Source: Pseudarthrobacter sp. NBSH8 (lineage in GTDB: Bacteria > Actinomycetota > Actinomycetes > Actinomycetales > Micrococcaceae). From it: a stretch of DNA of 64,000 bases. The stretch lies in NCBI RefSeq assembly GCF_014217545.1, contig NZ_CP043178.1, forward strand, positions 1,984,001 to 2,048,000, read 5' to 3'. The position numbers and the translations under genes were made by a program. The notes under the pieces were generated by a model. The model had not been told where the DNA came from, searched no databases, and worked only from the letters and a program-made list of their open reading frames with translations. Positions 4,624-60,947 of this stretch are shown here, piece by piece; position 1 is the stretch's first letter, and each line of letters starts with the position of its first letter.

Positions 4624-5189
4624 TTCCAGTCCTCCATGGTCTTTAGCAACGCGGCTCTGGCCCGGGCAAGTCTGCCCCGGACGCTGGTGGGGGTGATGTT
4701 CAATGCGTGGGCTATCTCCTCATAGGACATTCCGCCGATCTCTTTCATGGCCCAGCACCGGCGCTGCTCTTCGGGCAAAACAGCCAGGGCCAGGGAGATC
4801 GCGGCGACTTCGGAGTTCAGCTCGGCTGCCCCTTCCGGACCGGGTGCCGGATCGGGGGTGTCGATCAGGGCCGTGCCGGGTGGGTGGTATTTGCGGCGCC
4901 GGAGAGTATCGATGCCGCGGGTTCCGGTGATGCGCAGGAGCCAGGCCCGCACGGCGGCTTTGTCGTGGAGGGTGTCGAGGTGTTTCCATGCCTGGAGTAA
5001 GGCTTCCTGGACGACGTCGTCGGCGTCGGCCAGGGAGCCGGTGAGCCTGCGGGCGTAGGCACGCATCGCCGGGGCATGCCGGGCTGCCAGCACTTCAAAG
5101 GCCACCACGTCCCCGTCGCCGGCACGTTCAGCCAGCAATTCATCCGGGACGTGGCACAGCCGGCTCTTTCCACCAACAGGATCACTCAT
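4620..5189 (-). CDS. ECF-type RNA polymerase sigma factor
   Basis: A 189-residue sigma-70 family factor of ECF size. Region 2 (about residues 30-90) includes ADDVVQEALLQAWKHLD. Region 4 (about 135-185) includes LPEEQRRCWAMKEIGGMSYEEIAHAL and the recognition helix TPTSVRGRLARARAAL. Regions 1.1 and 3 are absent. It should direct RNA polymerase to a small stress regulon. It heads a translationally coupled operon with the ZAS/Asp23 protein and a second Asp23-like protein. The start at 5189 is supported by a TAGCGT element six bases upstream and no ribosome-binding site, suggesting a leaderless transcript. Confidence 0.9.
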   Translation of the reverse strand: MSDPVGGKSRLCHVPDELLAERAGDGDVVAFEVLAARHAPAMRAYARRLTGSLADADDVVQEALLQAWKHLDTLHDKAAVRAWLLRITGTRGIDTLRRRKYHPPGTALIDTPDPAPGPEGAAELNSEVAAISLALAVLPEEQRRCWAMKEIGGMSYEEIAHALNITPTSVRGRLARARAALLKTMEDWK

Positions 5190-5195
5190 GGGAAC

Positions 5196-5201
5196 ACGCT
5201 A
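5196..5201 (-). promoter_or_regulatory. Candidate leaderless -10 (TAGCGT) of the ECF sigma gene
   Basis: On the minus strand TAGCGT occupies positions -12 to -7 from the ATG at 5189, the place expected if transcription starts at the start codon. No Shine-Dalgarno sequence is present. Confidence 0.5.
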
Positions 5202-5730
5202 CCGTCACCGAAACCGCGGGACCAGACATGCCAGGTCCTTTCGTGGGCCCTCCTGGTCTTGGCGGGACGGGTCCACAAGTGCTCACCGCATGTTCCGGTG
5301 CTCAGCGGCGTGGATTATGATCCTTCCTGGCTAAACCCGGGCCGCCTTCCGGGCTCACCTAGCCTTTACTGTCTCCGCTACCTCGCAGCCTTCACGGACC
5401 CACTGCCCCTATCGAACCAACCAAAACCCAACCATGCCTGAATGCGAACGGCCTCCCGATATGCCGCGCGGACTGACCTCCAGCGCCTTGCCAACCGGCA
5501 TCCCTGTCCGGATGCACGGGATGGATCGAGGGCGTGCTGCCAGGGGCGGCTTCATTGCTGTGCTCGTGAGGAAGGGTGCTCTACCGCTGGCCACCCCCCT
5601 CCCTCCGCCCTAGGATCGAATGATCACCAATCATCAGCGAGGGCCCGCAAACAGGTACCGGGCGGATCGCCTCACCCAGTATTCGCCACTGGTCCTTCCT
5701 GTTATCGAAAGCGAGAGAAGGTGAACGCCC
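5202..5730. other. Intergenic region between divergent sigma operon and HPF-like gene
   Basis: About 530 bases without a supported gene. It should contain the promoter of the HPF-like gene. A TAGGAT hexamer occurs near 5611, but I could not pair it with a -35. Confidence 0.4.
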
Positions 5731-6081
5731 GTGCAAATTCAGGTCAGCACAAACAGTAGCGTCGAGGGCAGCGAACAATTAACCAGCGAGATCGAATCCA
5801 CTGTCAGTAGCAGGCTGTCGCGATTCGCCGATCAGATCACCCGGGTTGAGGTACATCTGGTCGATGAAAACGCGGACAAATCCGGTGGTGGGGACAAACG
5901 CTGCACTATCGAGGCGCGGGTAGCCGGACAACAACCGGTGGCTGTCTCACACAACGCAGGCTCATTGGAGGAAGCCTTCGCGGGAGCAGCAAACAAACTC
6001 TCCAGCCTGCTCAACAGCAAGATGGGCAAACTCGATAGACGCAAAGGAAACCAGCCGATGGGAGGGCCTGGAGCCTCCTAA
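5731..6081 (+). CDS. HPF/RaiA-like (S30EA family) ribosome-associated protein
   Basis: A 116-residue protein matching the N-terminal domain of ribosome hibernation/sigma-54 modulation proteins. It begins MQIQVSTNSSVEGSEQL, then shows the ITRVEVHLVDEN strand with a Gly/Lys-rich loop (DKSGGGDKRCTIEARV) and the amphipathic helix EEAFAGAANKLSSLL. Short HPF-type proteins bind the 30S decoding channel in stress or stationary phase. The long-HPF C-terminal dimerisation domain is absent. The start is GTG at 5731, preceded by GAGAAGGTG. It lies 66 bases before the baeRF gene, probably in one transcript. Binding details are inferred from the family. Confidence 0.8.
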   Translation: MQIQVSTNSSVEGSEQLTSEIESTVSSRLSRFADQITRVEVHLVDENADKSGGGDKRCTIEARVAGQQPVAVSHNAGSLEEAFAGAANKLSSLLNSKMGKLDRRKGNQPMGGPGAS

Positions 6082-6147
6082 CACTCAAGTCCTCGAATCT
6101 GCTCACCAATGAAGTGGTACCAAGCACGCTCTGTGAAAGGACCTAAA

Positions 6148-7296: not shown

Positions 7297-7343
7297 ACCA
7301 CAAAGCGCATCTCCACCATCCCGCGGAGCGGTTGTCAGGGAGG

Positions 7344-15662: not shown

Positions 15663-16187
15663 CTACCGCCAGTTGGTAGAAAGTACGACGACGGCACTCA
15701 CCGTGCCATCGTCGTCGTGCGTCAGTGCCGCGCCGGCCGCGGTAAGGAGCCGCTGGGCGCCTATGTTGCCTGCCGTGGTGTGGGCCACCACCTGGTGCAG
15801 TCCGGTGCGTCGGGCTTCCGCCAATACCAGCCTCAGCGCGGCTCCACCAATACCGCGGCCACGGTAATTGCGGCCCAGCCAGATGCCTGTCTCAGCAGTT
15901 CCGGGTTGCGCCGTTCCGTCGTCAATCCCTTTGAGCCTGACCGAACCGGCCGGGCTGCCGTCGCAGAGCACCGCCCAGCTCTTTTCCGAGACCGGTCCGT
16001 CCAGGCCCGCGGCCGCAGACCGGTGGTAGGCGCCGAACCAGTCGATGCGTTCCGCGTTCCAGCCCGTCCCGTTGCCAAGTGGCGGCGTGACGTCATCCGC
16101 GGACGCGTCCCGCTGCGCCAGTTCCAGCAGCCGCTCCTGCATGGGTTCGTCGACGTCTGCCAGCCGGACCTCAGGGGAGCGGGACAT
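15663..16187 (-). CDS. GNAT family N-acetyltransferase
   Basis: A 174-residue single-domain GNAT. The acetyl-CoA-binding motif is GRNYRGRGIGGAALRLVL (about residues 106-123), followed by TTAGNIGAQRLLTAAGA, as in RimJ/RimL-like enzymes. Substrate unknown. The start ATG at 16187 lies inside the end of the upstream YigZ-like gene (17-base overlap), so the two are co-transcribed on the minus strand. Confidence 0.85.
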   Translation of the reverse strand: MSRSPEVRLADVDEPMQERLLELAQRDASADDVTPPLGNGTGWNAERIDWFGAYHRSAAAGLDGPVSEKSWAVLCDGSPAGSVRLKGIDDGTAQPGTAETGIWLGRNYRGRGIGGAALRLVLAEARRTGLHQVVAHTTAGNIGAQRLLTAAGAALTHDDDGTVSAVVVLSTNWR

Positions 16188-16860
16188 CGATCCACTCCGT
16201 TCCGGCCGGTGTGAGCCCGGTTCTCCCGGCGGTAAGCGACAGCACGCGTTCGGTGGCCGCAGTGATTTGGTCAGCTTCGTCGGGCACCGCCAGGCGCAGG
16301 ATCGTCTCCTGCGCTCCGTAGCTGGTTTCCGCCATCACAAACCCGGCCGCCCGAAGATCGTTCTCCAGCCGTCCAGCAGCGGCATGCGGCACCGCCGCCG
16401 AGCAGATCCTCAGCCGGCTCCGCCGGACCAGGGGTGCGCGTTCCAGGGCGGCGGACACCGATTCCGAATAGGCGCGGACCAGTCCGCCGGCGCCCAGCAG
16501 GATGCCGCCGAAATAGCGTACGACGACGGCACTCACGTCGCTGAGGTCCGTCACCCCCGGTGCTGTTTCTCTTTTGACGATGGCCTCCAGCATCGGGATG
16601 CCTGCGGTACCGGAGGGCTCGCCGTCGTCACTGGAACGCTGGATGTCCCGGTCCGGTCCCAGGACGAACGCGGAGCAGTGGTGGCGGGCGTCGTGGAACT
16701 CGCGGCGCAGGCCAGCCACCAGGTCCCGCGCAGTGTCCTCATTGTCGGCGCGGCCCAGCACGGTAATGAACCTGGAGCGCTTGATCTCGATCTCGTGCCG
16801 GAAGCCGCGACCCAAGGCGAGCGTGGTGTAGGCGGTGGTCCGGCTGTCTTGCTCTTGCAC
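16171..16860 (-). CDS. YigZ/IMPACT family protein
   Basis: A 229-residue protein of the YigZ/IMPACT family. The N-terminal UPF0029 domain (about 20-130) contains EIEIKRSRFI, HHCSAFVLG, SDDGEPSGTAGIPML and VVRYFGGILLGAGGLVRAYS, all strongly conserved. The C-terminal ferredoxin-like DUF1949 domain (about 145-215) follows. The human relative IMPACT modulates GCN2 signalling; the bacterial role is unclear, possibly nucleic-acid binding. The GTG at 16860 has no ribosome-binding site but a TAGACT six bases upstream, so it is probably leaderless. It is divergent from coaE. Confidence 0.92.
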   Translation of the reverse strand: MQEQDSRTTAYTTLALGRGFRHEIEIKRSRFITVLGRADNEDTARDLVAGLRREFHDARHHCSAFVLGPDRDIQRSSDDGEPSGTAGIPMLEAIVKRETAPGVTDLSDVSAVVVRYFGGILLGAGGLVRAYSESVSAALERAPLVRRSRLRICSAAVPHAAAGRLENDLRAAGFVMAETSYGAQETILRLAVPDEADQITAATERVLSLTAGRTGLTPAGTEWIDVPLP

Positions 16861-16866
16861 CGCCCA

Positions 16867-16872
16867 AGTCTA
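16867..16872 (-). promoter_or_regulatory. Candidate leaderless -10 (TAGACT) of the YigZ-family gene
   Basis: TAGACT on the minus strand spans -12 to -7 from the GTG at 16860. No Shine-Dalgarno sequence is present. Confidence 0.5.
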
Positions 16873-16906
16873 GTGCGGGCAGCGAATTCAGGGAGGCGGT
16901 GGGGAT

Positions 16907-16912
16907 TAGGGT
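16907..16912 (+). promoter_or_regulatory. Candidate leaderless -10 (TAGGGT) of coaE
   Basis: TAGGGT spans -12 to -7 from the ATG at 16919. Only 58 bases separate coaE from the divergent YigZ-family gene, which has the same arrangement. Confidence 0.45.
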
Positions 16913-16918
16913 GGTGGG

Positions 16919-18133
16919 ATGCTCAAGATTGGTTTGACGGGCGGCATCGCCTCAGGGAAGTCAGTGGTCGCCTCACGCCTCGCCGAGCTCGGTGCCGTGC
17001 TGGTGGACGCGGATGCGCTGGCCCGGAACGTGGTTGAGCCGGGAATGCCGGGGCTGGCCCGTGTGGTGGAAGCCTTTGGACCGGAAATGCTCGACGCCGG
17101 GGGCCGGCTGGATCGGGACAGGCTCGGTTCCGTGGTGTTCGGCAACCCCTCGCAGCTGGCCGTGCTGAACGCCATCGTCCACCCGCTGGTCCGGGCCGCG
17201 GCGGCGGGCATCACCGCCACAGCCCCGGCCGGCGCCATTGTGGTCCAGGACATTCCACTGCTGGTGGAGACGGGCCAGGGCAGCGGCTTCCATCTGGTCC
17301 TTGTGGTGGACGCACCCGATGATGTCAGGATCGGACGGATGATCGAACACCGAGGCATGACGGCCGAGGACGCACGGTCGCGGATGGCGGCCCAGGCCTC
17401 GCGTGAGGCACGGCTAGCTGTTGCTGACGTGGTCCTTGACAACTCCGGATCGCTGGCTGACGTGACCGCAGAGGTGGACCGGCTGTGGACAGAGCGGCTG
17501 GTCCCGTTTGCGGATAATATCCACCGCGGGGCCAGGGCGGCCAGGACCGGAACCGCAGTATTGTCTGCTCCGCAGGAGGATTGGCCGGCCCAAGCTGCAC
17601 GGCTGGGATCCCGGGTCACCTCCGCGGCACCGGATGACATTCTGGCGGTGGACCATATTGGCTCCACGGCCGTGCCGGGCCTGGCAGCCAAGGACGTGAT
17701 CGACCTCCAGGTCACGGTGCCGGATCTCAACGCCGCGGACCGGATCGCGCCGCTGCTGGCCGCCGCGGGGTTCCCAGCCGTGCCGGGGGCCGGATTCGAC
17801 ACACCAAAACCGGCCGATCCGGAGCCGGAGCGCTGGCAGAAACGTTTTCATGCGAGCGCGGACCCCGGCCGGGCCGTGAACCTGCACGTCCGGGCAGCCG
17901 GCTCGCCCGGGTGGCGGTACGCGCTGCTCTTCCGCGACTGGCTCAGGAGCGATCCGGAGGCCGTCAGCCTTTACGGGGACCACAAGCGCGCCTTGGCCGA
18001 ACTGTTTGCGGATACCAACGGGACGCGGGCTTACGCGGAGGCGAAGGAACCGTGGTTCACGGACGAAGCGTGGCCGCGCATGGCGGGCTGGGCTGCACGC
18101 ACAGGCTGGGCGCCGCCGTCGTACTTCCCCTGA
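16919..18133 (+). CDS. coaE: Dephospho-CoA kinase fused to a GrpB/UPF0157 domain
   Basis: A 404-residue two-domain protein. Residues 1-200 are dephospho-CoA kinase, the last step of coenzyme A synthesis, with P-loop GLTGGIASGKS (5-15), the dephospho-CoA region VDADALARNVVEPG, and QDIPLLVETG. Residues about 210-400 form a GrpB/UPF0157 nucleotidyltransferase-like domain with HIGSTAVPGLAAKDVIDLQV. Such fusions are common in actinobacterial CoaE; the role of the second domain is unknown. The gene is probably leaderless. UvrB follows 80 bases downstream from its own promoter. Confidence 0.95.
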   Translation: MLKIGLTGGIASGKSVVASRLAELGAVLVDADALARNVVEPGMPGLARVVEAFGPEMLDAGGRLDRDRLGSVVFGNPSQLAVLNAIVHPLVRAAAAGITATAPAGAIVVQDIPLLVETGQGSGFHLVLVVDAPDDVRIGRMIEHRGMTAEDARSRMAAQASREARLAVADVVLDNSGSLADVTAEVDRLWTERLVPFADNIHRGARAARTGTAVLSAPQEDWPAQAARLGSRVTSAAPDDILAVDHIGSTAVPGLAAKDVIDLQVTVPDLNAADRIAPLLAAAGFPAVPGAGFDTPKPADPEPERWQKRFHASADPGRAVNLHVRAAGSPGWRYALLFRDWLRSDPEAVSLYGDHKRALAELFADTNGTRAYAEAKEPWFTDEAWPRMAGWAARTGWAPPSYFP

Positions 18134-18201
18134 ACTCCTTGCCCCTGAGGCGGTTTGTTCGCCGGCAACTGATCCGGACTTTCGCTGTCGGTCCCCGGTT
18201 G

Positions 18202-18207
18202 TAGATT
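18202..18207 (+). promoter_or_regulatory. Candidate leaderless -10 (TAGATT) of uvrB
   Basis: TAGATT spans -12 to -7 from the uvrB ATG. No Shine-Dalgarno sequence precedes the start. I found no LexA palindrome in this interval. Confidence 0.55.
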
Positions 18208-18213
18208 AGATGC

Positions 18214-20313
18214 ATGAGCCTTGCCCAGGAGATCAACCGCGTTGTCGCGCCGTTTGAAGTCATCAGCGAGTTCCAGCCGGCAGGTGATCAGCCTGCTGCG
18301 ATCACCGAACTGACGGAGCGGATCAGGAACGGCGAAAAGGACGTAGTCCTGCTGGGAGCCACCGGTACCGGTAAGAGCGCCACCACGGCCTGGCTGATCG
18401 AACAGGTCCAGCGGCCCACCTTGGTCATGGTGCAGAACAAGACCCTGGCCGCCCAGCTCGCCAACGAATTCCGGGAACTGCTGCCCAACAACGCGGTGGA
18501 GTACTTTGTTTCCTACTACGACTACTACCAGCCCGAGGCGTACGTAGCGCAGACGGACACCTTTATTGAGAAGGACTCCTCGGTCAACGAAGAAGTGGAA
18601 CGGCTCCGCCACTCCGCGACCAACGCCCTGCTAACCCGCCGCGACGTCATTGTGGTCGCCACGGTGTCCTGCATCTACGGCCTGGGCACGCCGGAAGAGT
18701 ACATTGCCGGCATGGTCACGCTCCGCAAGGGGGCACAGATGAACCGCGACGACCTGCTCCGGAAATTCGTCTCCATGCAGTACGCGCGCAACGACATGGA
18801 CTTCCACCGCGGCACCTTCCGGGTCCGGGGCGACACCGTGGAAATCATCCCGATGTACGAGGAACTGGCCATCCGGATCGAATTCTTCGGGGACGAGATT
18901 GAGAACATCCACACCCTCCATCCGCTGACCGGCGAACTGATCCGGGACGAAGAGGAAATGTACGTCTTCCCGGCCTCGCACTACGTGGCCGGGCCCGAGC
19001 GGATGGGCCGGGCCATCAAGCGGATCGAGGACGAGCTCGCCGAACGCCTTGCCGTCCTGGAAGGCCAGAACAAGCTGGTGGAAGCCCAACGGCTCCGCAT
19101 GCGCACCACCTACGACCTCGAAATGATGCAGCAGATGGGCTTCTGCAACGGCATCGAAAACTACTCATCACACATTGACGGACGCGCCCGCGGGACTGCT
19201 CCGCACTGCCTCATCGACTACTTCCCGGACGACTTCCTGCTGGTGATCGACGAATCCCACGTCACCGTACCGCAGATCGGCGCCATGTACGAGGGCGATA
19301 TGTCCCGCAAACGGAACCTCGTGGACTTCGGTTTCCGCTTGCCGTCAGCCATGGACAACCGCCCGCTCAAGTGGGACGAATTCCTGCAGCGCGTGGGCCA
19401 GACCGTCTATCTGTCGGCCACCCCCGGCAAGTACGAACTGGGCAAGGCCGACGGCTTTGTGCAGCAGATCATCCGGCCCACCGGACTGATCGACCCCGAG
19501 GTGGTGGTCAAGCCCACCAAGGGCCAGATCGATGACCTCCTCGGCGAGATCAAGACCCGCACAGCAAAGAACGAACGCGTCCTGGTCACCACGCTCACCA
19601 AACGGATGGCGGAGGACCTCACCGACTACCTGCTGGGCCACGGCATCAAGGTCGAATACCTCCACTCGGACGTAGACACCTTGCGACGGGTTGAGCTGCT
19701 CCGGGAACTCCGGATGGGTGTCTTCGACGTCCTGGTGGGAATTAACCTGCTCCGCGAAGGCCTGGACCTGCCCGAGGTATCCCTCGTGAGCATCCTGGAC
19801 GCGGACAAGGAAGGCTTCCTGCGCTCGGCAACTTCGCTGATCCAGACCATCGGCCGCGCCGCCCGCAACGTCTCCGGCGAGGTCCACATGTACGCGGACC
19901 GCATCACCGACTCCATGGCCAAGGCTATCGATGAAACCAACCGGCGCCGCGCCATCCAGGTGGCCTACAACACCGAACGGGGCATCGATCCGCAGCCGCT
20001 GCGGAAGAAGATTGCCGACATCACCGACCAGCTGGCCAAGGAAGACGCCGACACCCAGGAACTGCTCAACAACAACCGGCTGGCTAAGGGCGCCAAACGT
20101 GGCAAGTCCGCAGCAAAGGGCGCGGCACAGGTCCGCAAAGACGGCCTCGCCGCGGCACCGGCCGAAGACCTTGTGGGCCTCATCGAACAGCTGACCGAAC
20201 AGATGCACGGCGCTGCCGCCGAGCTCCAGTTCGAGTTGGCCGCGCGGATCCGGGACGAGGTCAGTGACCTCAAGAAAGAGCTCCGCCAGATGCAGGCGGC
20301 CGGCCACGCCTAG
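18214..20313 (+). CDS. uvrB: Excinuclease ABC subunit B
   Basis: A 699-residue UvrB, the helicase-like damage-verification subunit of nucleotide excision repair. It has P-loop [11 protein letters not shown] (48-58), the beta-hairpin region [20 protein letters not shown] (about 94-113), the Walker B-type IDESHV motif, [20 protein letters not shown] and QTIGRAARN of the helicase domain, and a C-terminal UVR motif (about 660-692) that contacts UvrC. UvrA and UvrC are encoded at 33.9 and 38.3 kb. No ribosome-binding site is present; transcription probably starts at the ATG. Confidence 0.98.
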
Positions 20314-21680: not shown

Positions 21681-21686
21681 TATGCT
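21681..21686 (+). promoter_or_regulatory. Candidate leaderless -10 (TATGCT) of the MFS gene
   Basis: TATGCT spans -12 to -7 from the ATG at 21693. The only purine-rich stretch upstream (GGAG) is too close to the ATG to serve as a ribosome-binding site. Confidence 0.45.
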
Positions 21687-21692
21687 CGGAGC

Positions 21693-23108
21693 ATGGCCCG
21701 CATTCTGATGACGGAAAACGGAGTGCGCCAGGTGCAACGGCGCACCGTGGTGCTGCTGAGCGCGGCCCAGGTTTTCGGCGGCATCGGCACCGGAGCCACG
21801 GTTTCCATCGGTTCCATCCTGGCCGTGGAACTTTCAGGTTCCAGCGTGTGGGCAGGTGCCGTGGCAACGGTTATGACCTTGGGAGCCGCGCTGACTGCCC
21901 TGCCCCTGGCTTCGCTGGCGGACCGGCGGGGCCGCCGGGCCGGGCAGGTCACGGGGCTATCCGCTGCTCTGGCCGGCACTGTGCTGATAGTGCTCTCCAT
22001 CGTGTCCGGCTTGTTCGTCCTGCTGGTGCTGGGGGCCGTGGGCATCGGGGTGGGCACCGCGGCGAGCCTGCAGGCACGCTTCGCCGCCGTCGACCTTGCG
22101 GATGCTGAACACCGCGGCAGGGCGCTGTCAGCTGTTGTGTGGGCTGTGACGGTGGGCGCCGTTGCCGGCCCCAACCTCATCCAGCCCGGCACCGTTGTGG
22201 GTCTGGCCCTCGGACTGCCGCCCGTCGCCGGACCGTTCGTGATCTCCGCAGCCGGACTCCTGCTGGCGATCGTGCTGCTCTTCGCCGGACTCAGGCCCGA
22301 CCCGCTTCTGCTCGCCCGCGAAATCGCTGCCCAGGAGACAGCCGACCACACAGCTGGCGGGAAGACCCCGGGCAAGCCACCAACTCCGGCCAACCAGCGA
22401 GGCGCCACCGCGCGCACCGCAGGCGGGGGATCGCTCGTCCGCGGGCTACGTGCCATCCGGCAGTCCAGGGCTTCCTGGCTGGCGCTTGCCGCCGTCGTCG
22501 GAGCCCACGCCGTGATGGTGGGCGTAATGTCCATGACCCCGCTGCATTTGCAGGAACTTGTGGCCGGGCCGGGTTCCTCCCATGCCGGCCACGCTTCGTC
22601 CGGCGATGTCCTGGTAATCATCGGCTTCACCATCTCGCTGCATATCGCCGGCATGTTCGCGTTGTCGCCGGTCATGGGTTGGCTGACGGACAAGGCAGGC
22701 AGGACAGAGACCATCATAATCGGCTTCACCACGCTCATCGCGGCCGTCGCCGTCGCCGGATTCGGCCAGACATCAACCGTGGCGGTGGCCGTGGGACTTG
22801 TCCTGCTGGGCATGGGCTGGTCTGCAGCCACCATATCCGGCTCCACGCTGCTGGCCGAGAGCGTCCCCCAGGAGTCCCGTGTGGTGGTCCAAGGTGTATC
22901 GGACATGCTGATGGGCGCCGCCGGCGCCGTGGGCGGGGCTACCTCCGGCCTGATCCTTAGTTGGGCCGGCTACCTGGGACTGAACATGGCGGGCGGCCTG
23001 GTGGGGGCTGCAGTCCTGACCGCCGCCGTCGTTGTCCTTGTGGCGCGTCGCCGCAGCCCCACCGCCGGCACTACCACTGGTTCAGCGGCCGGCTCTGCTG
23101 CCCGCTGA
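21693..23108 (+). CDS. MFS transporter
   Basis: A 471-residue major facilitator protein with about 12 hydrophobic helices. The loop 2-3 signature is LASLADRRGRRAGQ (about 73-86), and the second half has the matching GWLTDKAGRTETIIIG. A long hydrophilic central loop (about 205-250) separates the halves. Substrate unknown; the layout fits a drug or small-metabolite efflux pump. It ends by overlapping the convergent hydrolase gene by 27 bases. Confidence 0.85.
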   Translation: MARILMTENGVRQVQRRTVVLLSAAQVFGGIGTGATVSIGSILAVELSGSSVWAGAVATVMTLGAALTALPLASLADRRGRRAGQVTGLSAALAGTVLIVLSIVSGLFVLLVLGAVGIGVGTAASLQARFAAVDLADAEHRGRALSAVVWAVTVGAVAGPNLIQPGTVVGLALGLPPVAGPFVISAAGLLLAIVLLFAGLRPDPLLLAREIAAQETADHTAGGKTPGKPPTPANQRGATARTAGGGSLVRGLRAIRQSRASWLALAAVVGAHAVMVGVMSMTPLHLQELVAGPGSSHAGHASSGDVLVIIGFTISLHIAGMFALSPVMGWLTDKAGRTETIIIGFTTLIAAVAVAGFGQTSTVAVAVGLVLLGMGWSAATISGSTLLAESVPQESRVVVQGVSDMLMGAAGAVGGATSGLILSWAGYLGLNMAGGLVGAAVLTAAVVVLVARRRSPTAGTTTGSAAGSAAR

Positions 23109-24473: not shown

Positions 24474-24966
24474 GGACGGACGCTGCCGTCCTGGTGCCAA
24501 AGCTCTCCAGAGCGTCGCCCGTCAGCCGGAACGTGGACCAGCCATCCAGGGGACGGGCGCCGAGGCTGCGGTAAAAGTTGATGGACGGCTCGTTCCAGTC
24601 CAGGACGCTCCACTCCACCCGGGCGTAACCGTTCTCGACGGCGGTGGCAGCCAGATGCTTCAGCAGCGCCTTGCCGTGCCCCTCGCCGCGTGCGTCCGGG
24701 CTGACGTAGAGGTCTTCCAGGTAGATCCCATGGACGCCTTCCCACGTGGAGTAGTTCAGGAACCAGAGGGCGAACCCCTGGACCTCGCCCGCGCTGTTCT
24801 CGGCCATCGTGGCAAACACGCGCGGGTTCCCGCCGAACAGGACCTCGGCCAGCATTTCTGGGGTGTTGCGGACCGCGTCCGGTTCCTTCTCGTAGATGGC
24901 CAGTTCGTGGATCATCTGCAGGATGGCGGGGACGTCTTGCCGGGTGGCGGGGCGGATTACACTCAT
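24466..24966 (-). CDS. GNAT N-acetyltransferase, diamine/spermidine acetyltransferase-like
   Basis: A 166-residue GNAT resembling SSAT-type enzymes: MSVIRPATRQDVPAILQMI, LAIYEKEPDAV near residue 23, GIYLEDLYVSPDARGEGHGK (about 80-99, with the acetyl-CoA loop) and VLDWNEPSINFYRSLGA. Related enzymes acetylate polyamines or amino groups of thialysine. The ATG at 24966 has TAAACT six bases upstream and no ribosome-binding site, so the transcript is probably leaderless. It overlaps the next gene by eight bases. Confidence 0.88.
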   Translation of the reverse strand: MSVIRPATRQDVPAILQMIHELAIYEKEPDAVRNTPEMLAEVLFGGNPRVFATMAENSAGEVQGFALWFLNYSTWEGVHGIYLEDLYVSPDARGEGHGKALLKHLAATAVENGYARVEWSVLDWNEPSINFYRSLGARPLDGWSTFRLTGDALESFGTRTAASVRG

Positions 24967-24972
24967 GGCCCG

Positions 24973-24978
24973 AGTTTA
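24973..24978 (-). promoter_or_regulatory. Candidate leaderless -10 (TAAACT) of the GNAT gene
   Basis: TAAACT on the minus strand spans -12 to -7 from the ATG at 24966, with no Shine-Dalgarno sequence. Confidence 0.5.
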
Positions 24979-33910: not shown

Positions 33911-33926
33911 TCGAAGAAGTTTTCGA
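33911..33926 (+). promoter_or_regulatory. LexA (SOS) box of uvrA
   Basis: TCGAAGAAGTTTTCGA is a 16-base near-palindrome matching the Gram-positive/actinobacterial SOS box TCGAAC-N4-GTTCGA at 10 of 12 positions. It ends one base before the uvrA -10 element, so LexA binding would block RNA polymerase. Confidence 0.75.
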
Positions 33927-33927
33927 T

Positions 33928-33933
33928 TAGCAT
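33928..33933 (+). promoter_or_regulatory. Candidate leaderless -10 (TAGCAT) of uvrA
   Basis: TAGCAT spans -12 to -7 from the uvrA GTG, directly after the LexA box. No Shine-Dalgarno sequence is present. Confidence 0.55.
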
Positions 33934-33939
33934 TAGTGG

Positions 33940-36867
33940 GTGCCTAAAGCCGTAGCTGAAGAAACAGCAGTCGAATCCGTCCCCGTCGCCGTTACCCAGG
34001 CCCCAGCCACGCCTGCCCGGCCAGACCTCTCCCGCCTTGTGGTCAAGGGCGCGCGGGAGCATAACCTGCGCAATGTGGACCTGGATCTGCCCCGTGATGC
34101 GATGATCGTTTTCACCGGGCTATCCGGCTCTGGGAAGTCATCGCTGGCATTCGACACCATCTTCGCCGAGGGCCAGCGGCGCTACGTTGAATCACTGTCG
34201 GCCTATGCCCGTCAGTTCCTCGGCCAGGTGGACAAGCCGGACGTCGATTTCATCGAAGGCCTCTCGCCTGCGGTATCGATTGACCAGAAGTCCACCAGTA
34301 AGAACCCCCGCTCCACGGTTGGCACCATAACCGAAATTTATGACTACATGCGTTTGCTGTGGGCACGCGTGGGTCGGCCGCATTGCCCCGTATGTGGCGA
34401 GGTTGTGGCCCGGCAGACGCCGCAGCAGATCGTGGACCAGCTGCTTGAGCTTGAGGAAGGCACACGCTTCCAGGTCCTGGCGCCGGTGGTACGTGGGCGC
34501 AAGGGCGAGTTCGTGGACCTCTTCAAGGAGCTGACAGCCAAGGGCTATTCGCGTGCCCGGGTGGACGGCGAGCTGATCCAGCTGAGCGAGCCCCCCAAAC
34601 TCGGCAAGCAGTTCAAGCACACCATTGAAGTGGTGGTGGACCGCCTGGTGGTCAAGGAAGGCATCAGCCAGCGCCTTACGGATTCCGTTGAAACGGCGCT
34701 TGGCCTGGCCGAAGGCCGGGTACTGGCCGAGTTCGTCGATCTGGACGCAGACGCGCCGGGACGGCTGCGGGCATTTTCCGAGAACCTCGCCTGCCCCAAC
34801 GAACACCCCCTGGCCATCGATGAAATCGAGCCGCGCTCCTTCTCGTTCAACAATCCCTTCGGCGCCTGTTCCGCGTGCAGCGGCATCGGTACACGGCTCG
34901 AGGTTGACGAAGAACTGATTATTCCGAACCCGGAGCTGTCGTTGTCCGAGGGCGCCATCGCGCCGTGGTCACTGGGCACCGCAACCACTGAGTATTGGAA
35001 CCGCCTGCTCGAAGGGCTGGCCAATGAGCTCGGATTCTCCATGGACACACCCTGGGAGAAGCTGGGCAACGACGTCCGCCAGACTGTCCTGCATGGCAAG
35101 GACCACAAGGTGGTTGTCCAATACAAGAACCGCTTCGGACGGGAACGTAAATACAGCACCGGCTTCGAGGGTGCCATCCAGTACGTCCACCGCAAGCACG
35201 GCGAGACGGACTCCGAGTGGGCCCGCGACCGCTATGAAGAATACATGCGGCAGATCGCGTGCCCTGCGTGCAATGGCGCCCGGCTCAACCCCGCCTCGTT
35301 GTCCGTCCTGATCAACGGCAAGTCCATCGCAGAAGTAGCGGCCATGCCCATGCGGGTGTGCGCGGACTTCCTGAACAACCTGGTCCTGACCGGCCGCGAG
35401 GCCCAGATCGCCCACCAGGTGCTCAAGGAAATCCAGGCCCGGCTGACCTTCCTGCTCGACGTCGGGCTGGAATACCTGAACCTTGAGCGCCCCTCCGCCA
35501 CCTTGTCCGGCGGCGAAGCGCAGCGGATCCGCCTCGCCACCCAGATCGGTTCCGGCCTGGTGGGCGTCCTTTACGTCCTGGACGAGCCCTCCATCGGCCT
35601 CCACCAGCGCGACAACCGCCGGCTCATCGACACCCTGACACGGCTCCGGGACATGGGAAACACCCTCATCGTTGTGGAACACGACGAGGACACCATCCAG
35701 GTGGCGGACTGGATCGTTGACATTGGCCCGGGCGCAGGCGAGCACGGCGGTCAGGTCGTCCACTCCGGTTCGTACCAGGACCTCCTGGCCAACACCAACT
35801 CACTGACCGGCGACTACTTGTCCGGCCGCAAGCAGATCGACATCCCCAAGAAGCGGCGCAAATATGACAAGAAGCGTGAGCTGAAGGTCGTCGGGGCCCG
35901 TGAAAACAACCTGATCAACGTTGATGCGGCCTTCCCCCTGGGACTGTTCACCGCCGTGACCGGCGTCAGCGGCTCCGGCAAGTCAACGCTGGTCAACGAG
36001 ATCCTCTACAAAGTGCTGGCCAACAAGCTCAACGGCGCCAAGCAGGTAGCCGGACGCCACAAGAGCATCATGGGCCTGGAGCACCTGGACAAGGTGGTGC
36101 ACGTGGACCAGAGCCCCATCGGGCGAACCCCCCGGTCCAACCCCGCCACGTACACCGGCGTCTTTGACAACATCCGAAAGCTCTTCGCCGAAACCACCGA
36201 GGCCAAAGTCCGCGGCTACCTGCCAGGCCGGTTCTCCTTCAACGTCAAAGGCGGGCGCTGCGAAGCTTGCGCCGGTGACGGCACACTGAAGATCGAAATG
36301 AACTTCCTGCCGGACGTCTACGTTCCCTGCGAGGTATGCCACGGCGCACGGTACAACCGCGAGACCCTTGAAGTGCACTACAAGGGCAAAACCATCGCGG
36401 ATGTGCTCAACATGCCCATCGAAGAAGGTGCGGAGTTCTTCGCAGCCTTCTCGCCAATCGCCCGGCACCTGAACACGCTCGTGGACGTGGGCCTCGGCTA
36501 CGTCCGGCTGGGACAGCCGGCAACCACCCTCTCCGGCGGCGAAGCCCAGCGCGTCAAGCTTGCCGCGGAACTGCAGAAGCGCTCCAACGGACGCAGCGTT
36601 TATGTCCTCGACGAGCCCACCACGGGCCTGCACTTCGAGGACATCCGCAAGCTCCTGATGGTCCTTCAGGGACTGGTGGACAAGGGCAACACCGTGATCA
36701 CCATCGAACACAACCTGGATGTCATCAAGAGCGCCGACTGGATCGTGGATCTTGGACCGGACGGCGGTTCGGGCGGCGGGCAGATCGTGGCCACCGGCAC
36801 TCCCGAGCAGGTGGCGAAATCCACCAAGAGCCACACGGCATCCTTCCTCGCGGAAATACTGAGCTAG
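33940..36867 (+). CDS. uvrA: Excinuclease ABC subunit A
   Basis: A 975-residue UvrA, the damage-sensing ATPase of nucleotide excision repair. The first ATPase has Walker A GLSGSGKS (60-67) and the ABC signature [19 protein letters not shown]. The second has [15 protein letters not shown] and [15 protein letters not shown]. Zinc modules appear as CPVCGE early and [16 protein letters not shown] with [10 protein letters not shown] late. The N-terminal extension of about 30 residues is acidic and Ala/Val-rich. GTG at 33940 without a ribosome-binding site is consistent with a leaderless message. LexA control is likely. It lies downstream of, but separate from, the ABC/GntR operon. Confidence 0.98.
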
Positions 36868-38314: not shown

Positions 38315-38320
38315 TAGAAT
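38315..38320 (+). promoter_or_regulatory. Candidate leaderless -10 (TAGAAT) of uvrC
   Basis: TAGAAT starts immediately after the upstream stop codon (38312-38314) and spans -12 to -7 from the uvrC GTG. No Shine-Dalgarno sequence is present. Confidence 0.6.
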
Positions 38321-38326
38321 GAAGTA

Positions 38327-40333
38327 GTGGCAGATCCAGCAACGTACCGGCCCCAGACGGGTGAAATTCCCACGAACCCCGGGGTGTACCGGTTCCGCGA
38401 TCCACACGGCCGGGTCATCTACGTCGGCAAGGCTAAAAGCCTTCGCTCGCGCCTGAACTCCTACTTCGCGAACCCGGCGGGCCTGCTGCCCAAAACCCAC
38501 GCAATGGTCCACACGGCCAGCAGCGTCGAGTGGACGGTGGTGGGCAGCGAACTGGAGTCGTTGCAGCTCGAATACACCTGGATCAAGGAATTCAAGCCCC
38601 GGTTCAACGTGGTCTTCCGCGACGACAAAACCTATCCGTACCTGGCCCTTACCATGAGCGAGAAGCTCCCCAGGGTCCAGGTCATGCGGGGGGACCGCCG
38701 CAAAGGCACCCGGTACTTCGGTCCCTACACGGCCGGCGCCATCAGGGAAACCATGGACACCTTGCTGCGGGTCTTTCCCGTCCGCAGCTGCAGCGCCGGC
38801 GTTCTCAAACGGGCCCAGGCGAGCGGCCGGCCCTGCCTGCTGGGCTATATCGATAAATGCTCCGCCCCCTGTGTTGGCCGGGTCACCCCGGAAGAACACC
38901 GGGTCCTGGCGGAGGACTTCTGCGCGTTTATGGGCGGTGAGGCCAAACGCTTCATCACCAAGCTCGAAAAGCAGATGTCCGAGGCTGTCAGCACTCTCGA
39001 CTACGAGCGTGCCGCGAGGCTCCGTGACGACATCACCGCGTTGCGGAAGGTCTTTGAGCGTAATGCGGTAGTGCTCGCCGACGATACCGACGCCGATGTC
39101 TTCGCGCTGCACGAGGACGAACTGGAAGCCGCCGTCCAGGTGTTCCACGTCCGGGGCGGCCGGATCCGTGGCCAGCGCGGCTGGGTGGTGGAAAAAGTGG
39201 AGGATGCCACCACCCCGGATCTGGTGGAACACCTGTTGCAGCAGGTTTACGGCGACGACGGCGACAGCCATGGGCGGCTGCCCCGCGAAGTCCTGGTGCC
39301 CGTAGAGCCCAGCAACGCGGCGGAACTGACGGAATGGCTCGGCGGCCTGCGGGGAGCCAAGGTGGATATCAGGGTGCCGCAGCGCGGCGACAAGGCTGCG
39401 CTGATGTCCACCGTCCGTGAAAACGCCGAACACGCGCTCAAAGTGCATAAGACCCGCCGCGCCGGGGACCTCACCGTGCGCTCCCAGGCACTCCAGGAGC
39501 TGCAGGAAGCCCTGGACCTGCCCGTGGCGCTCCTGCGGATCGAATGCTACGACGTCTCCCACGTCCAGGGCACCAACGTCGTGGCCTCCATGGTGGTGGT
39601 CGAGGACGGGCTGCCCAAGAAGTCCGATTACCGGAAATTCTCCGTCACCGGGGCCGCCGCTGCGGACGACACCGCCGCCATGCATGATGTCCTGACGCGG
39701 CGCTTCCGGTATTACCTGCAGGATAGGTCGGCGCAGGTCGAGGCGTCCGCCCTGCCGGGGCATCAAGCCGCCGTGGAAGCGGCTGCCGATGCCGCCATCC
39801 TGGACACCACTACTGCAGCGCCGCGGGCGAAGTTTGCCTACCCGCCCAACCTGGTGGTGGTCGATGGCGGCCAGCCCCAGGTCAACGCAGCCGCCCGGGC
39901 GCTGGCGGACCTTGGCATCGAGGATGTGTACGTGGTGGGCCTGGCCAAACGGCTTGAGGAAGTCTGGCTGCCGGACAGCGACTTCCCTGTGATCCTGCCC
40001 AGGACATCGCAGGGACTTTATCTGCTGCAGCGGATCCGTGACGAAGCCCACCGCTTCGCCATCACCTTCCACCGGCAGAAGCGCGGTAAGGCCATGACTG
40101 TCTCGGCGCTGGACGGCGTGCCAGGCCTGGGTGAGTCCAAACGCAAGGCGCTGCTCACCCACTTCGGGTCCGTCAAGGGTGTCAGAGCCGCCACCGCAGC
40201 CGAGCTCACGTCGGCGAAGGGCATTGGGCCGGCCCTTGCCAACGCCATCGTGGCCCACTTCAGCGGCGAAGATGCGGCCGGCGATGCAGTTCCGGCCGTG
40301 AATATGGCCACCGGCGAAATCATTGAAACCTAG
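38327..40333 (+). CDS. uvrC: Excinuclease ABC subunit C
   Basis: A 668-residue UvrC, the dual-incision nuclease of nucleotide excision repair. It has an N-terminal GIY-YIG nuclease domain (GVYRFRD at 19-25, [12 protein letters not shown] at 31-42), a UVR motif (about 208-243) that binds UvrB, the RNase H-like second nuclease (around [20 protein letters not shown] and [11 protein letters not shown]), and a C-terminal helix-hairpin-helix pair ([16 protein letters not shown]). GTG start with no ribosome-binding site. It is followed at 72 bases by rapZ-yvcK-whiA, the standard actinobacterial order. Confidence 0.98.
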
Positions 40334-44280: not shown

Positions 44281-45351
<1,071 letters not shown>

Positions 45352-45361
45352 GGTTAGACAC

Positions 45362-46588
45362 ATGACATTCCACACCCTCAACGAACTGATCGCTGAAGGT
45401 GTCCGCGGGCGGTACATTCTTGTCAGAAGTGACCTGAATGTGCCGCTCGACGGCTCTACAGTGACTGACGACGGCCGCATTAAGGCCTCTCTGCCAGTAC
45501 TGGGAAAGCTCACGGACGCCGGTGCCCGCGTGCTGGTAACAGCCCACCTCGGACGCCCCAAGGGCGCTCCGGAGGAAAAGTACTCCCTCCAGCCTGCCGT
45601 AGCGCGGCTCGCCGAACTCGCCGCCTTCAAGGTCTCGCTCGCGCAGGACACGGTGGGCAGCTCAGCGAAGGAACTCGCTGCCTCGCTTCAGGACGGCGAA
45701 GTCCTCGTCCTGGAGAACGTGCGTTTCGACGCCCGGGAGACCAGCAAGGACGACGCCGAACGCGGCGCCTTCGCGGACGAACTGGTAGCCCTGACAGGGC
45801 CCAACGGTGCATACGTTGACGACGCCTTTGGTGCCGTACACCGTAAGCACGCCAGTGTGTTCGACGTCGCCACCCGGCTCCCGTCCTACCAGGGCGATCT
45901 CGTACACACCGAGGTGGAGGTTCTGCGGAAGCTGACGGCTGACACGCAGCGGCCCTACGTGGTGGTACTCGGCGGCTCCAAGGTCTCCGATAAGCTGGCG
46001 GTCATCGACAACCTCATCGGCAAAGCCGACACCATCCTGGTGGGCGGCGGCATGCTCTTCACGTTCCTGGCGGCAGAAGGCCACAGCGTGGCCGGCAGCC
46101 TCCTGGAAGAAGACCAGATCCCGGTTGTCCAGGACTACCTGAAACGGGCAGCCGGAGCCGGCACTGAATTCATCGTGCCCACCGACGTCATCGTGGCCAG
46201 TAAGTTCGCGGCCGACGCAGACTACGAGACCGTCCCCGCGGACGGCATCGAAGGCAGCAGCTTCGGCTCACAGGGCATCGGCCTTGACATCGGTCCGGAC
46301 TCTGCCGCCGCCTTTGCGGACCGGATCAAGGACGCCAAAACGGTGTTCTGGAACGGGCCCATGGGCGTTTTCGAGTTCGAAGCATTCTCCGGCGGAACCC
46401 GCGCCGTAGCCAAGGCCCTCACTGAGGCCGACGCGTTCACCGTGGTGGGCGGCGGGGACTCCGCTGCCGCCGTGCGGACGCTCGGCTTCGCTGACGACCA
46501 GTTCGGCCACATTTCCACCGGCGGCGGCGCCAGCCTGGAATATCTCGAAGGCAAGGAACTCCCGGGACTCAGCGTCCTGGACCGTTAG
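45362..46588 (+). CDS. pgk: Phosphoglycerate kinase
   Basis: A 408-residue phosphoglycerate kinase, the ATP-forming step after GAPDH. The substrate Arg/Asp segment [11 protein letters not shown] is at 21-31, followed by [34 protein letters not shown] and the C-terminal nucleotide region [15 protein letters not shown] with [15 protein letters not shown]. The ATG at 45362 starts the canonical N-terminus [13 protein letters not shown], although the ribosome-binding site is weak; a longer upstream frame overlaps gap and is rejected. Confidence 0.98.
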
Positions 46589-58228: not shown

Positions 58229-58247
58229 TTGGGGTAAATAGTGGCGG

Positions 58248-59192
58248 CTACGAGAGCGGGCTTGAGCGGGCGAGGTCGGCGGTGTTTGTTGCCGCGCTCA
58301 TCAGCAGTGCCGCGCCAAGCATGTGGGCGCCCACCAGCAACGCGGGGATGCCGTTGTAGTACTGGGTGAAACCGATGACTGCCTGCAGCATGGTTACAGC
58401 CAGGAGCAGCAGGACGGACGTGCGGAACGGTCCTTGGATCCGGCGGACGATCACCAGCACCACTGCGAACAGTGTTCCGGCCGTGATCACGTACGCCGGA
58501 ACGGCATGGATGTGGGAGAACAGGTCCCAGTCAAGGCCGTTGCGGGGCGCGTCGGCGTCACCGGCGTGGGGGCCGGAGCCGGTCACCACAACGCCGAGCA
58601 TTACGGCAAGAGCGGAGAAAAGCGCGACGGCGGCCGCCACCGGACGCAGGACGCCCGGCAATGTTGGGAGCTGGATGGCCGCGTGGCGGCCCGTCCTTCC
58701 GAACGCCCGGTTGACGAGCAGTGTGGCGATCACCACGAGGGCCATGGACACAAGGAAGTGCAGGCCCACCACCCACGGATTGAGGTTGGTCAGCACGGTG
58801 ATGCCCCCGATCACCGCCTGTGCCGGAATGCTGGCCAGCAGGCCAAGCGCCAGCAGGAAGAGGTCCCGGCGCTCCTTGCGAAGGTTCCACAAGTACACAA
58901 GCATGGCCACCGCAACCGCTGCCAGCGCAAACGTCAGGAGCCGGTTGCCGAACTCAATGAAGCCGTGAATCCCCATTTCGGCAGTGTTCACCAAAGAGGT
59001 GTCCGTGCAGCGTGGCCACGTGGGGCAGCCGAGGCCGGACGCGGTCAGCCGCACCGCGCCGCCGGTCACCACCAGCAGCGTCTGGCCAACCAGGGACGCC
59101 ACCGCGAGGCGGCGGACGCTGGCGTCCACGGTACGGGGAAGTCTCGCGATGAGGCGGCCGGCAATCGGGGGGAGGCGTGAAGCCGTGCTCAC
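58248..59192 (-). CDS. ctaA: Heme A synthase
   Basis: A 314-residue, eight-helix membrane protein of the CtaA/COX15 family, which oxidises heme O to heme A. Conserved pieces are TGGAVRLTASGLGCPTWPRC with its Cys pair, the heme-ligand His in IHGFIEFGNRLL and LHFLVSMALV, and FSHIHAVPAYVITAG in the second half. The GTG at 59192 (MSTASRLPPIAGRL) is preferred to a longer frame from 59240. It lies 7 bases after the ABC permease stop, so the three minus-strand genes form one operon. Confidence 0.95.
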   Translation of the reverse strand: MSTASRLPPIAGRLIARLPRTVDASVRRLAVASLVGQTLLVVTGGAVRLTASGLGCPTWPRCTDTSLVNTAEMGIHGFIEFGNRLLTFALAAVAVAMLVYLWNLRKERRDLFLLALGLLASIPAQAVIGGITVLTNLNPWVVGLHFLVSMALVVIATLLVNRAFGRTGRHAAIQLPTLPGVLRPVAAAVALFSALAVMLGVVVTGSGPHAGDADAPRNGLDWDLFSHIHAVPAYVITAGTLFAVVLVIVRRIQGPFRTSVLLLLAVTMLQAVIGFTQYYNGIPALLVGAHMLGAALLMSAATNTADLARSSPLS

Positions 59193-59199
59193 GGATATC

Positions 59200-59970
59200 T
59201 CAATTCCACTTGAACCAACGGATGGCTGCTGCCCCGGCAAGAACTGTCCAGAGCAGCAGGATAAGCGCGGCGCCGCTGTTCAGCGAGCCGTGCAGGAAAG
59301 CTTCGCGCATGGCCTCGCCGAGTGCGCCGGAGGGCAGATAGTGGACCACTTGCTGCGCCAGCGCGGGCAGCCGTTCCGCGGGAATAACGATCCCGCCGAG
59401 GGCGCCCAGCAGGATCCACAGCAGGTTGGTGATGGCAAGGGTGGCCTCGGGCCGCACGGTGCCGGCCACCAGGAGTCCCAACGCGGTGAACGCCACGGCG
59501 CCCAGGACCAGCATCGACAGGCCAGGGAGCCAGCCGGAGGCGGGCGGCTGCCAGCCCAGAGGGAGCGCCACCAGCGTCACAACTGCAACTTGGAGGCAGA
59601 GAACCGCCAGGACCGCCAGCACCTTACCCGCGATGAGGCCTTCGCGGCCCAGGGGTGTGGTGGACAGGAACCGGAGAACTCCGTACCGCCGATCGAAGCC
59701 GGTGGCGATGCCCTGCCCGGTAAATGCCGTGGACATCGCGCACAAAGCCAGGATGCCGGGGACCGCCACATTGATGCGGCTGGCTCCGAAGCCGTCAAGG
59801 AATGGGGTGACAGTGAGCCCCACCAGCACAAGCAGCGGCAGGACCACGGCGAGGATCAGCTGCTCGCCGTTCCTGAGCATGGTCAGGGATTCATACCTGC
59901 CCTGCAGCAGGACGCGGCGCAGCAGCGTGGCCGGCGCTCCCTGGGCGGCGGTGGCTGCGGGAGCCGTCAT
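59200..59970 (-). CDS. ABC-2 type transporter permease
   Basis: A 256-residue membrane protein with about six hydrophobic helices (for example LAVVLPLLVLVGLTV, GILALCAMSTAFTGQGIA, WLPGLSMLVLGAVAFTALGL), the form of ABC-2 permeases. Its start at 59970 overlaps the ATPase stop by ATGA (59967-59970). An ATPase, this permease and ctaA in one unit is a common actinobacterial arrangement next to suf genes. The substrate is unknown; a role linked to heme or cytochrome assembly is only suggested by position. Confidence 0.88.
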   Translation of the reverse strand: MTAPAATAAQGAPATLLRRVLLQGRYESLTMLRNGEQLILAVVLPLLVLVGLTVTPFLDGFGASRINVAVPGILALCAMSTAFTGQGIATGFDRRYGVLRFLSTTPLGREGLIAGKVLAVLAVLCLQVAVVTLVALPLGWQPPASGWLPGLSMLVLGAVAFTALGLLVAGTVRPEATLAITNLLWILLGALGGIVIPAERLPALAQQVVHYLPSGALGEAMREAFLHGSLNSGAALILLLWTVLAGAAAIRWFKWN

Positions 59971-60935
59971 CGGAGGTCCTTTCCCGAGATGTCGAGGAAG
60001 ACATCTTCCAGGCTTCGAGCCGCCAGGCTCATTGAACCGGGCATAACATTGTGGGCAGCCCACCAGGCGGTCAGCGACGCGAGATCGTGGGGTGTCAGTG
60101 CACCCATGGCAACGTAGCTTCCGGCCCGCGTTTCAGAGACGGCGATGGCTTCGGGCAGCACGCCGGTGAAATCCAGCCCGGGGCGGGCCTCGAACACCAG
60201 GGTGCGGACATGGTCCGTGCCGGCCTCCACAGCCGGATCCCGCTGCAGCAGCTGGGGAACTGTTCCTTCGGCGACGTTCCTGCCGGCGTCAATGATGTAC
60301 ACGTAGTCGGCCAACCGTTGGGCGTCGTCCATCAGGTGCGTTGTGAGGATGATGCCCATCCCGGTTGCCCGCAGTTCCGAGATCAGCTCGAACACCAGCT
60401 GCCGGGACTGGGGATCCAGGCCGGCGCTGGGCTCGTCCAGGAATAGGACTTCCGGATTTCCGATCAGGGCTGCGGCGAGTGCCAGCCGTTGTTTCTGCCC
60501 ACCGGAGAGCCGGCGGACGGTGGTCCTGGCGAAGGAGTCAATACCAAGCCGTTCCACCAGTTCGTCAACGGAGCGGGGCCTCGCGTACATTCCGGCGATG
60601 TGCCGCAGGAGCGGGATGGGACGGGCCGACGGCGGGAGGCCGCCGTCCTGAAGCATCACGCCTACGCGGGACCGCAGGTCAGCGCCCGCTCGGCCCGGAT
60701 CCTGGCCGAGCAGCGAGATGCTGCCGCCGCTGCGCTTCTGCAGGCCTTGGGCGCATTCGATGGTGGTGGTTTTTCCAGCTCCATTGGCGCCCAGGAGGGC
60801 CGTGACCTGGCCGCGTTCGGCCATAAAAGATACGCCGTTGACTACGCGGAGCATTTTTCCGTCCAGACTGGCCAGCGGACCAACATCCTTAATTAACCCG
60901 CTGATGGACAGAACCGGGGATTCGGGGGATCGCAC
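59967..60935 (-). CDS. ABC transporter ATP-binding protein
   Basis: A 322-residue ATPase partner of the permease. Walker A GANGAGKT (about 49-56), signature LSGGQKQRLALAAAL, Walker B VLFLDEPSAGLD and the H-loop LTTHLMDDA are intact. A C-terminal extension (about 235-322) is typical of ABC-2 drug or polymer exporters. GTG start at 60935 without a ribosome-binding site; TAGAAT lies six bases upstream, so the transcript is probably leaderless. It is divergent from sufR. Confidence 0.92.
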   Translation of the reverse strand: MRSPESPVLSISGLIKDVGPLASLDGKMLRVVNGVSFMAERGQVTALLGANGAGKTTTIECAQGLQKRSGGSISLLGQDPGRAGADLRSRVGVMLQDGGLPPSARPIPLLRHIAGMYARPRSVDELVERLGIDSFARTTVRRLSGGQKQRLALAAALIGNPEVLFLDEPSAGLDPQSRQLVFELISELRATGMGIILTTHLMDDAQRLADYVYIIDAGRNVAEGTVPQLLQRDPAVEAGTDHVRTLVFEARPGLDFTGVLPEAIAVSETRAGSYVAMGALTPHDLASLTAWWAAHNVMPGSMSLAARSLEDVFLDISGKDLR

Positions 60936-60941
60936 CCCAGC

Positions 60942-60947
60942 ATTCTA
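60942..60947 (-). promoter_or_regulatory. Candidate leaderless -10 (TAGAAT) of the ABC/ctaA operon
   Basis: TAGAAT on the minus strand spans -12 to -7 from the GTG at 60935, with no Shine-Dalgarno sequence. Confidence 0.6.

Follow-up and report, generated by a model that had tools for sequence, protein, structure and literature searches.

Conserved TANNNT boxes in register with start codons suggest leaderless promoters at uvrA, uvrB, uvrC and other genes of Pseudarthrobacter sp. NBSH8

Results

Nine genes with a TANNNT box in one register

The window analysed here is a 64 kb stretch (positions 1984001-2048000) of the single-contig, 4.06 Mb genome of Pseudarthrobacter sp. NBSH8, and our subject is the hexamer TANNNT, which stands at one and the same distance from the start codons of nine of its genes. 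In Pfam, the proteins encoded by these genes carry sigma-70 regions 2 and 4 (an ECF sigma factor), UPF0029, CoaE together with GrpB, UvrB, MFS, GNAT, UvrA, UvrC and ABC ATPase domains; the UPF0029 gene is presumably the one named YigZ, as it is called below, and the UvrA protein shares 99% identity with its counterpart in Pseudarthrobacter sp. AL07. No tRNA was found in the window, nor any structured RNA above the Rfam gathering scores.

According to the original prediction, the hexamer occupies exactly positions -12 to -7 upstream of the nine start codons, and this is the case in all nine (Table 1). The accompanying claim that these genes have no Shine-Dalgarno sequence stands for eight of them, which lack even a 4-base match, but the MFS gene does have a match of 4 bases. 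For nine of the 54 genes called in the window, TANNNT stands at -12 from a candidate start, compared with a mean of 0.81 at the other offsets (Poisson P ~2e-7), so that about one of the nine sites would be expected by chance.

Table 1. Start-codon-linked TANNNT boxes in the window and the sequence elements next to them
Feature	Gene	Span	Strand	First base of start codon	Remarks
TAGCGT-N6-ATG	ECF sigma factor (4620-5189)	5187..5201	-	5189	Sigma70_r2 and r4; weak case, possibly chance
TAGACT-N6-GTG	YigZ/UPF0029 (16171-16860)	16858..16872	-	16860	register at -12/-13 in 30/30 same-genus loci
TAGGGT-N6-ATG	coaE-GrpB (16919-18133)	16907..16921	+	16919	CoaE+GrpB domains; register in 30/30 family loci
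PafBC-like box TGTCGGTC (18186-18193), N8, TAGATT, N6, ATG	uvrB (18214-20313)	18186..18216	+	18214	register in 30/30
TATGCT-N6-ATG	MFS transporter (21693-23108)	21681..21695	+	21693	register in 21/21 same-genus loci scanned, of 30 fetched
TAAACT-N6-ATG	GNAT acetyltransferase (24466-24966)	24964..24978	-	24966	register in 29/30 same-genus loci
LexA-like box TCGAAGAAGTTTTCGA (33911-33926), then TAGCAT-N6-GTG	uvrA (33940-36867)	33911..33942	+	33940	register in 64/80
TAGAAT-N6-GTG	uvrC (38327-40333)	38315..38329	+	38327	directly behind TAG stop of preceding gene; register in 20/30 family loci
TACTAC-N5-GTAGAAT, imperfect inverted repeat over TAGAAT-N6-GTG	ABC transporter ATPase (59967-60935)	60933..60959	-	60935	register in 29/30

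Two register peaks in the genome sample

The count was carried to a genome sample consisting of the window together with 40 stretches, each 20 kb long (864 kb in all, or 21% of the genome). Its 709 genes were called with a simple caller of our own, which uses coding score alone and no upstream signal, and TANNNT was recorded at each offset from all candidate ATG, GTG and TTG starts lying no more than 50 codons inside the called one. The sharp peak at -12 that had been foreseen for such a count is present, and it is accompanied by a second one at -13: 78 of the 709 genes have the hexamer at -12 and 48 at -13, compared with 5 to 18 at each other offset between -40 and -6 (mean 10.06 over 31 offsets; Poisson P ~7e-42 for -12 and ~6e-18 for -13). 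This second peak indicates that a spacing of 7 bases (N7) is used as well as one of 6 (N6), and the idea of a single fixed spacing has to be replaced by one of two spacings; that a shared spacing of this kind is unlikely to arise by chance is borne out both by the window and by the sample. With the window excluded, 69 genes remain at -12 and 45 at -13, of 655, and when called starts only are considered the figures are 56 and 29 of 708, with 0 to 6 at the other offsets. Since 10048 in-frame starts lying more than 100 codons inside genes show no peak (10 at -12 and 12 at -13, range 2 to 27), an artefact of codon structure is rejected; CTG, ATT and ATC do not peak at -12 or -13 either. After subtraction of ~8 chance matches per offset, a value that we estimated from the ATG and GTG counts, ~14% of the genes are estimated to carry the strict signal, with an ATG or GTG start.

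With ATG and GTG starts only, the -12 class comprises 78 genes and the -13 class 40, and ATG accounts for 83 of these 118 motif starts. Shine-Dalgarno matches of at least 5 bases occur in 1 of the 118 motif genes and in 145 of the 590 others (Fisher P ~5e-12), so that an explanation of the motif genes by Shine-Dalgarno sequences is not supported. None of the 530 TTG starts has TANNNT at -12. The base at -1 is C or T in ~71% of the -12 class and ~87% of the -13 class, and with a pyrimidine there and a purine as first base of the start codon, both classes look as if transcription starts on the start codon, 6 or 7 bases downstream of the hexamer. No clear -35 consensus was seen upstream of the motif genes of the sample. 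Once 37 genes at stretch ends had been dropped, 14 of 113 motif genes, compared with 153 of 558 others, were found at most 20 nt behind a same-strand gene (Fisher P ~5e-4), a tendency only for motif genes to be rarer in such positions.

Conservation of the register in relatives

In the orthologue scans every candidate start near the aligned N-terminus was counted. For uvrB, uvrC and coaE we used the best 30 of 61 genomes of the family Micrococcaceae, and for the YigZ, GNAT and ABC genes the best 30 of 31 genomes of the same genus, the window's own genome being counted in throughout. All 30 loci have TANNNT at -12 or -13 in the case of uvrB (21 and 9, respectively), coaE (23 and 7) and YigZ (23 and 7). 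The GNAT gene has it in 29 of 30 loci (22 and 7), the ABC gene likewise in 29, all of them at -12, and uvrC in 20 (19 and 1). At the sole ABC locus without the register (L376) the match begins at residue 4, and the motif lies just upstream in another frame. With the MFS gene, 21 of 30 loci were scanned, the others being weaker or fragmentary matches or second matches in a genome already represented, and all 21 have the hexamer at -12. Only 5 of 30 loci, again of the same genus, could be scanned for the ECF sigma gene, the remaining matches having 34% identity or less, and one of the five was too close to a contig end.

At other offsets the relatives of uvrB, uvrC, GNAT and ECF have counts at or near zero. 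Matches there were seen in 4 of 30 YigZ loci at -15, 10 of 21 MFS loci at -27, 5 of 30 coaE loci at -27 and 14 of 30 ABC loci at -9 and at -7. Three neighbouring genes served as controls, for which a score filter kept 19 of 30, 29 of 30 and 38 of 80 loci; two of them have no match at -12 or -13 (0/19 and 0/38), and the third is discussed below. The proposal that the register would fix the start codons stands up well for all nine genes but the ECF sigma gene, whose case is weak.

uvrA: a register that keeps pace with the start codon

The uvrA orthologues came from a separate collection of 80 loci from named genomes, 64 of which have the register (39 at -12 and 25 at -13), while 4 have the hexamer at -14 and 0 to 3 at any other offset between -30 and -6. 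The start codon is GTG in all 64 loci with the register (33940-33942 in the window), although most motif starts of the genome sample are ATG. It lies 4 to 50 codons ahead of the conserved core, the length of the N-terminal extension varying accordingly, and in several close relatives (L050, L054 and L057) an in-frame stop is found at most 1 codon upstream, and no candidate start other than the GTG precedes the core. The uvrA promoter and start codon thus seem to shift jointly, as one unit.

In the window a LexA-like box adjoins the -10 hexamer of uvrA. Scored against consensus letters that we take to be those of the LexA box, a LexA-like box with at most 2 mismatches is present in 55 of the 64 loci with the register, compared with 9 of 4000 random windows of equal length; in 29 of the 55 it adjoins the -10 hexamer and in 26 it lies further upstream. 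In the closest uvrA relatives the box has 2 mismatches and the same letters as in the window.

PafBC-like boxes at uvrB and elsewhere

Upstream of uvrB, the sequence TGTCGGTC differs by 1 mismatch from TGTCRGTG, which we take to be the PafBC box, and the arrangement TGTCGGTC-N8-TAGATT fits a PafBC (RecA-NDp) promoter. A box with at most 2 mismatches is found at this fixed place in 18 of the 30 uvrB loci, the other 12 having more, as well as in 3 of 20 uvrC loci and in 0 of 140 loci of six other families. The uvrC relatives L171 and L173 have a PafBC-like box before the putative leaderless start. As only some uvrC relatives have such a box, the regulatory element varies even as the register persists.

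The window's genome contains 15 sites that fit TGTCNGTN9TANNNT (4 in the backward control), and eight of these have an ATG or GTG at N6 or N7 with an open frame of at least 60 codons. Judged by eye from the translations, the eight presumably include radA, uvrB, thiL, sbcD and an exonuclease, and one of them (L233) looks spurious. The gene that we take, on the same grounds, to be recA has a PafBC-like box with its start 65 nt downstream.

Across the 61 family genomes there are 384 sites of the form TGTCNGTGN8TANNNT (73 when the pattern is read backwards), a count that repeated genes inflate in some genomes (e.g. G008). An ATG or GTG at N6-7 follows in 174 of the 384 sites and in 6 of the 73 backward ones, which, with the controls subtracted, places ~54% of the PafBC-like sites of these 61 Micrococcaceae genomes in the leaderless register. 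Frames were checked for 30 of the 174 sites, and 29 of the 30 loci fetched have one of at least 60 codons, compared with 1128 of 2330 random ATG/GTG codons in the sampled stretches. In some relatives (L239 and L257) several near-identical copies per genome of PafBC-like sites in the leaderless register occur ahead of open frames.

Other features of the window

The YigZ and coaE genes point away from each other, their start codons being separated by 58 bp (16861-16918), and this one short stretch would hold two leaderless promoters. The CoaE protein has GrpB as a fusion partner, but since the match in many relatives ends after roughly the first 200 residues, the CoaE-GrpB fusion is not universal. 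The inverted repeat of the ABC gene (60942-60959, minus strand) overlaps the -10 box and is present in 29 of 30 same-genus loci; TACTAC-N5-GTAG was not found in the 40 sampled genome stretches. A gene for a MarR/HTH-type regulator lies near the ABC ATPase gene, divergent at 61118, and its product is a possible candidate repressor for this repeat. Two window genes with ATG or GTG starts were placed by the scan at -13 (11592+ and 45362+), and both sites are doubtful. The first is inside a weak overlapping open reading frame. At the second, that of the phosphoglycerate kinase gene, the TAG of TANNNT (45349-45362) is the stop codon of the preceding GAPDH gene, which shows that stop codons can mimic the signal.

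Discussion

The register of the nine genes, its overrepresentation in the genome sample, the scarcity of Shine-Dalgarno sequences and the conservation in relatives are direct observations, and with these before us we consider it very probable that the pattern is real and represents leaderless promoters fixed on start codons, with an ordinary housekeeping-type -10 element and with RNA 5' ends that we infer to coincide with the start. All of the nine window genes except the ECF sigma gene look genuine. The TANNNT box would be placed so that RNA polymerase, probably with the main sigma factor, begins at the start codon's first base, 6 or 7 bases further on; the resulting mRNAs would have no 5' leader, and ribosomes would translate them from the 5' end with no Shine-Dalgarno sequence to guide them. 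In two of the genes this promoter-start unit would be joined to a regulatory element, presumably acting as its type implies: a putative PafBC-type activator box at uvrB and a putative LexA-type repressor box at uvrA.

Several observations weigh against this interpretation or limit its reach: (i) the register is not universal among orthologues. In uvrC, 10 of 30 loci lack it, and in uvrA 16 of 80 have it neither at -12 nor at -13; beyond the four at -14, these are one Arthrobacter and one Rhodococcus (with a Shine-Dalgarno match), three Rothia, a Streptomyces, an Actinoplanes, three Blastococcus and two Geodermatophilus. For the ECF sigma gene the register was seen in one of four loci, the window's own, and in none of the three relatives scanned, and this site may be a chance match. 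(ii) The third control gene, which lies downstream of uvrC, has 6 matches at -12 and 4 at -13 in 29 loci; it is therefore not a clean negative control, and in some genera a leaderless promoter of its own is conceivable. (iii) The lack of a Shine-Dalgarno sequence is an unspecific mark, since 340 of the 590 other genes of the sample are also without a 4-base match, and a match of 5 bases is likewise rare in the control genes (1/19, 4/29 and 3/38 loci). (iv) TTG starts have the hexamer at -13 in 7 of 530 cases, contrary to what would be expected from a strict AUG/GUG rule. (v) The 14 motif genes within 20 nt of a same-strand gene occupy positions where a TAG stop can mimic TANNNT. (vi) Finally, the gene calls of the sample are those of our own simple caller, and the several candidate starts allowed per orthologous locus raise chance matches at all offsets alike.

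Two other explanations have to be weighed. The first accepts the boxes as real -10 elements and supposes either very short leaders, with transcription starting a few bases upstream of the start codon or inside it, or the use of a codon further downstream. The two register values, together with the four uvrA orthologues at -14, agree with it and suggest that a shift of about one or two bases is tolerated by polymerase or ribosome, and the TTG starts at -13 point the same way. Against it stand the pyrimidine before the start codon and the purine on it in both classes, the absence of TTG at -12 and the several uvrA loci (L050, L054, L057) in which an upstream stop leaves no other start before the core, and we regard this explanation as improbable. 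The second, chance matches picked from a window with many candidate starts, of which roughly 0.8 per offset are indeed expected there and to which the ECF site and the two -13 genes would conform, is refuted as a general account by the peaks and by the conservation of eight genes (in 20 to 30 of 30 loci, in 21/21 for MFS and 64/80 for uvrA), so that it can apply to single sites at most and deserves next to no credence for the pattern as a whole.

Leaderless promoters of this kind are already described. Zheng et al. (2011; PMC3160421) reported TANNNT ~12 bp upstream of the start as the -10 box of leaderless, TA-led genes, which make up ~20% of genes and were detected in 86 of 89 actinobacterial genomes; the premise of the original prediction, that Actinobacteria have many leaderless mRNAs, is well founded in that work. 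The window genes share the spacing of the TA-led genes, and the ~14% of genes with a strict signal is somewhat below ~20%. Arthrobacter is not named in the main text of that paper, and the sections of it covered here give no gene-by-gene conservation with regulatory boxes. In Corynebacterium glutamicum 33% of the mRNAs (707/2147) are leaderless, all of them with AUG or GUG starts, a rule that the absence of TTG at -12 resembles, and in Streptomyces coelicolor ~28% (53/192 with <11 nt) are leaderless (PMC3890552). The leaderless mRNAs of Mycobacterium tuberculosis have a TANNNT -10 box and no conserved -35 (PMC3898074), as is the case here. The C. glutamicum and M. tuberculosis cases rest on mapped 5' ends, whereas ours rests on sequence and comparative evidence.

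In the case of the DNA-damage genes, the name PafBC (RecA-NDp) and the position of its box around -26 are those of PMC11804915 and PMC6789036. At PafBC promoters this box is joined to a housekeeping -10, and in a pafBC mutant of Mycobacterium smegmatis the expression of recA and uvrB falls (PMC11804915, PMC5656591, PMC6789036); the structure of PafBC from Arthrobacter aurescens has been solved (PMC6789036). The uvrB gene studied here likewise has its box at a fixed distance from the -10. The word leaderless is absent from PMC11804915, whereas about half of the PafBC-like sites of the family stand in the leaderless register. This share compares with 33% in C. glutamicum and ~28% in S. coelicolor, with the reservation that organisms and methods differ. 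In one open-access library we found no paper on a link between PafBC and leaderless promoters, none there on leaderless DNA repair genes with LexA in actinobacteria, and none that combines PafBC, RecA-NDp and uvrB; what it has on leaderless genes and Micrococcaceae is unrelated, to judge by the titles. A search of it for leaderless, uvrA and LexA in Actinobacteria gave only a Kocuria genome paper, in which, as far as its text was covered, leaderless occurs once, in a reference title.

That about half of the PafBC-like DNA-damage promoter sites of 61 Micrococcaceae genomes lie in the leaderless register is possibly new, and this link with DNA damage and the sliding uvrA promoter might be the parts of our findings that are. 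We tentatively propose, with a confidence that falls a little short of even, that the DNA-damage response of the Micrococcaceae is preferentially built of leaderless promoters, with a rigid unit of the form PafBC box-N8-TANNNT-N6-7-ATG/GTG, and that in uvrA the unit with the LexA box would have moved along the gene in the course of evolution, the position of the promoter setting the length of the N-terminal extension.

Taken together, this analysis lends support to the start-codon assignments of eight genes, among them uvrA, uvrB and uvrC of nucleotide-excision repair, and shows that comparison among relatives is a way of testing for a leaderless register without recourse to RNA data. Should leaderless mRNAs really be overrepresented among DNA-damage genes, the cell might be able to go on producing repair proteins while ordinary initiation is compromised.

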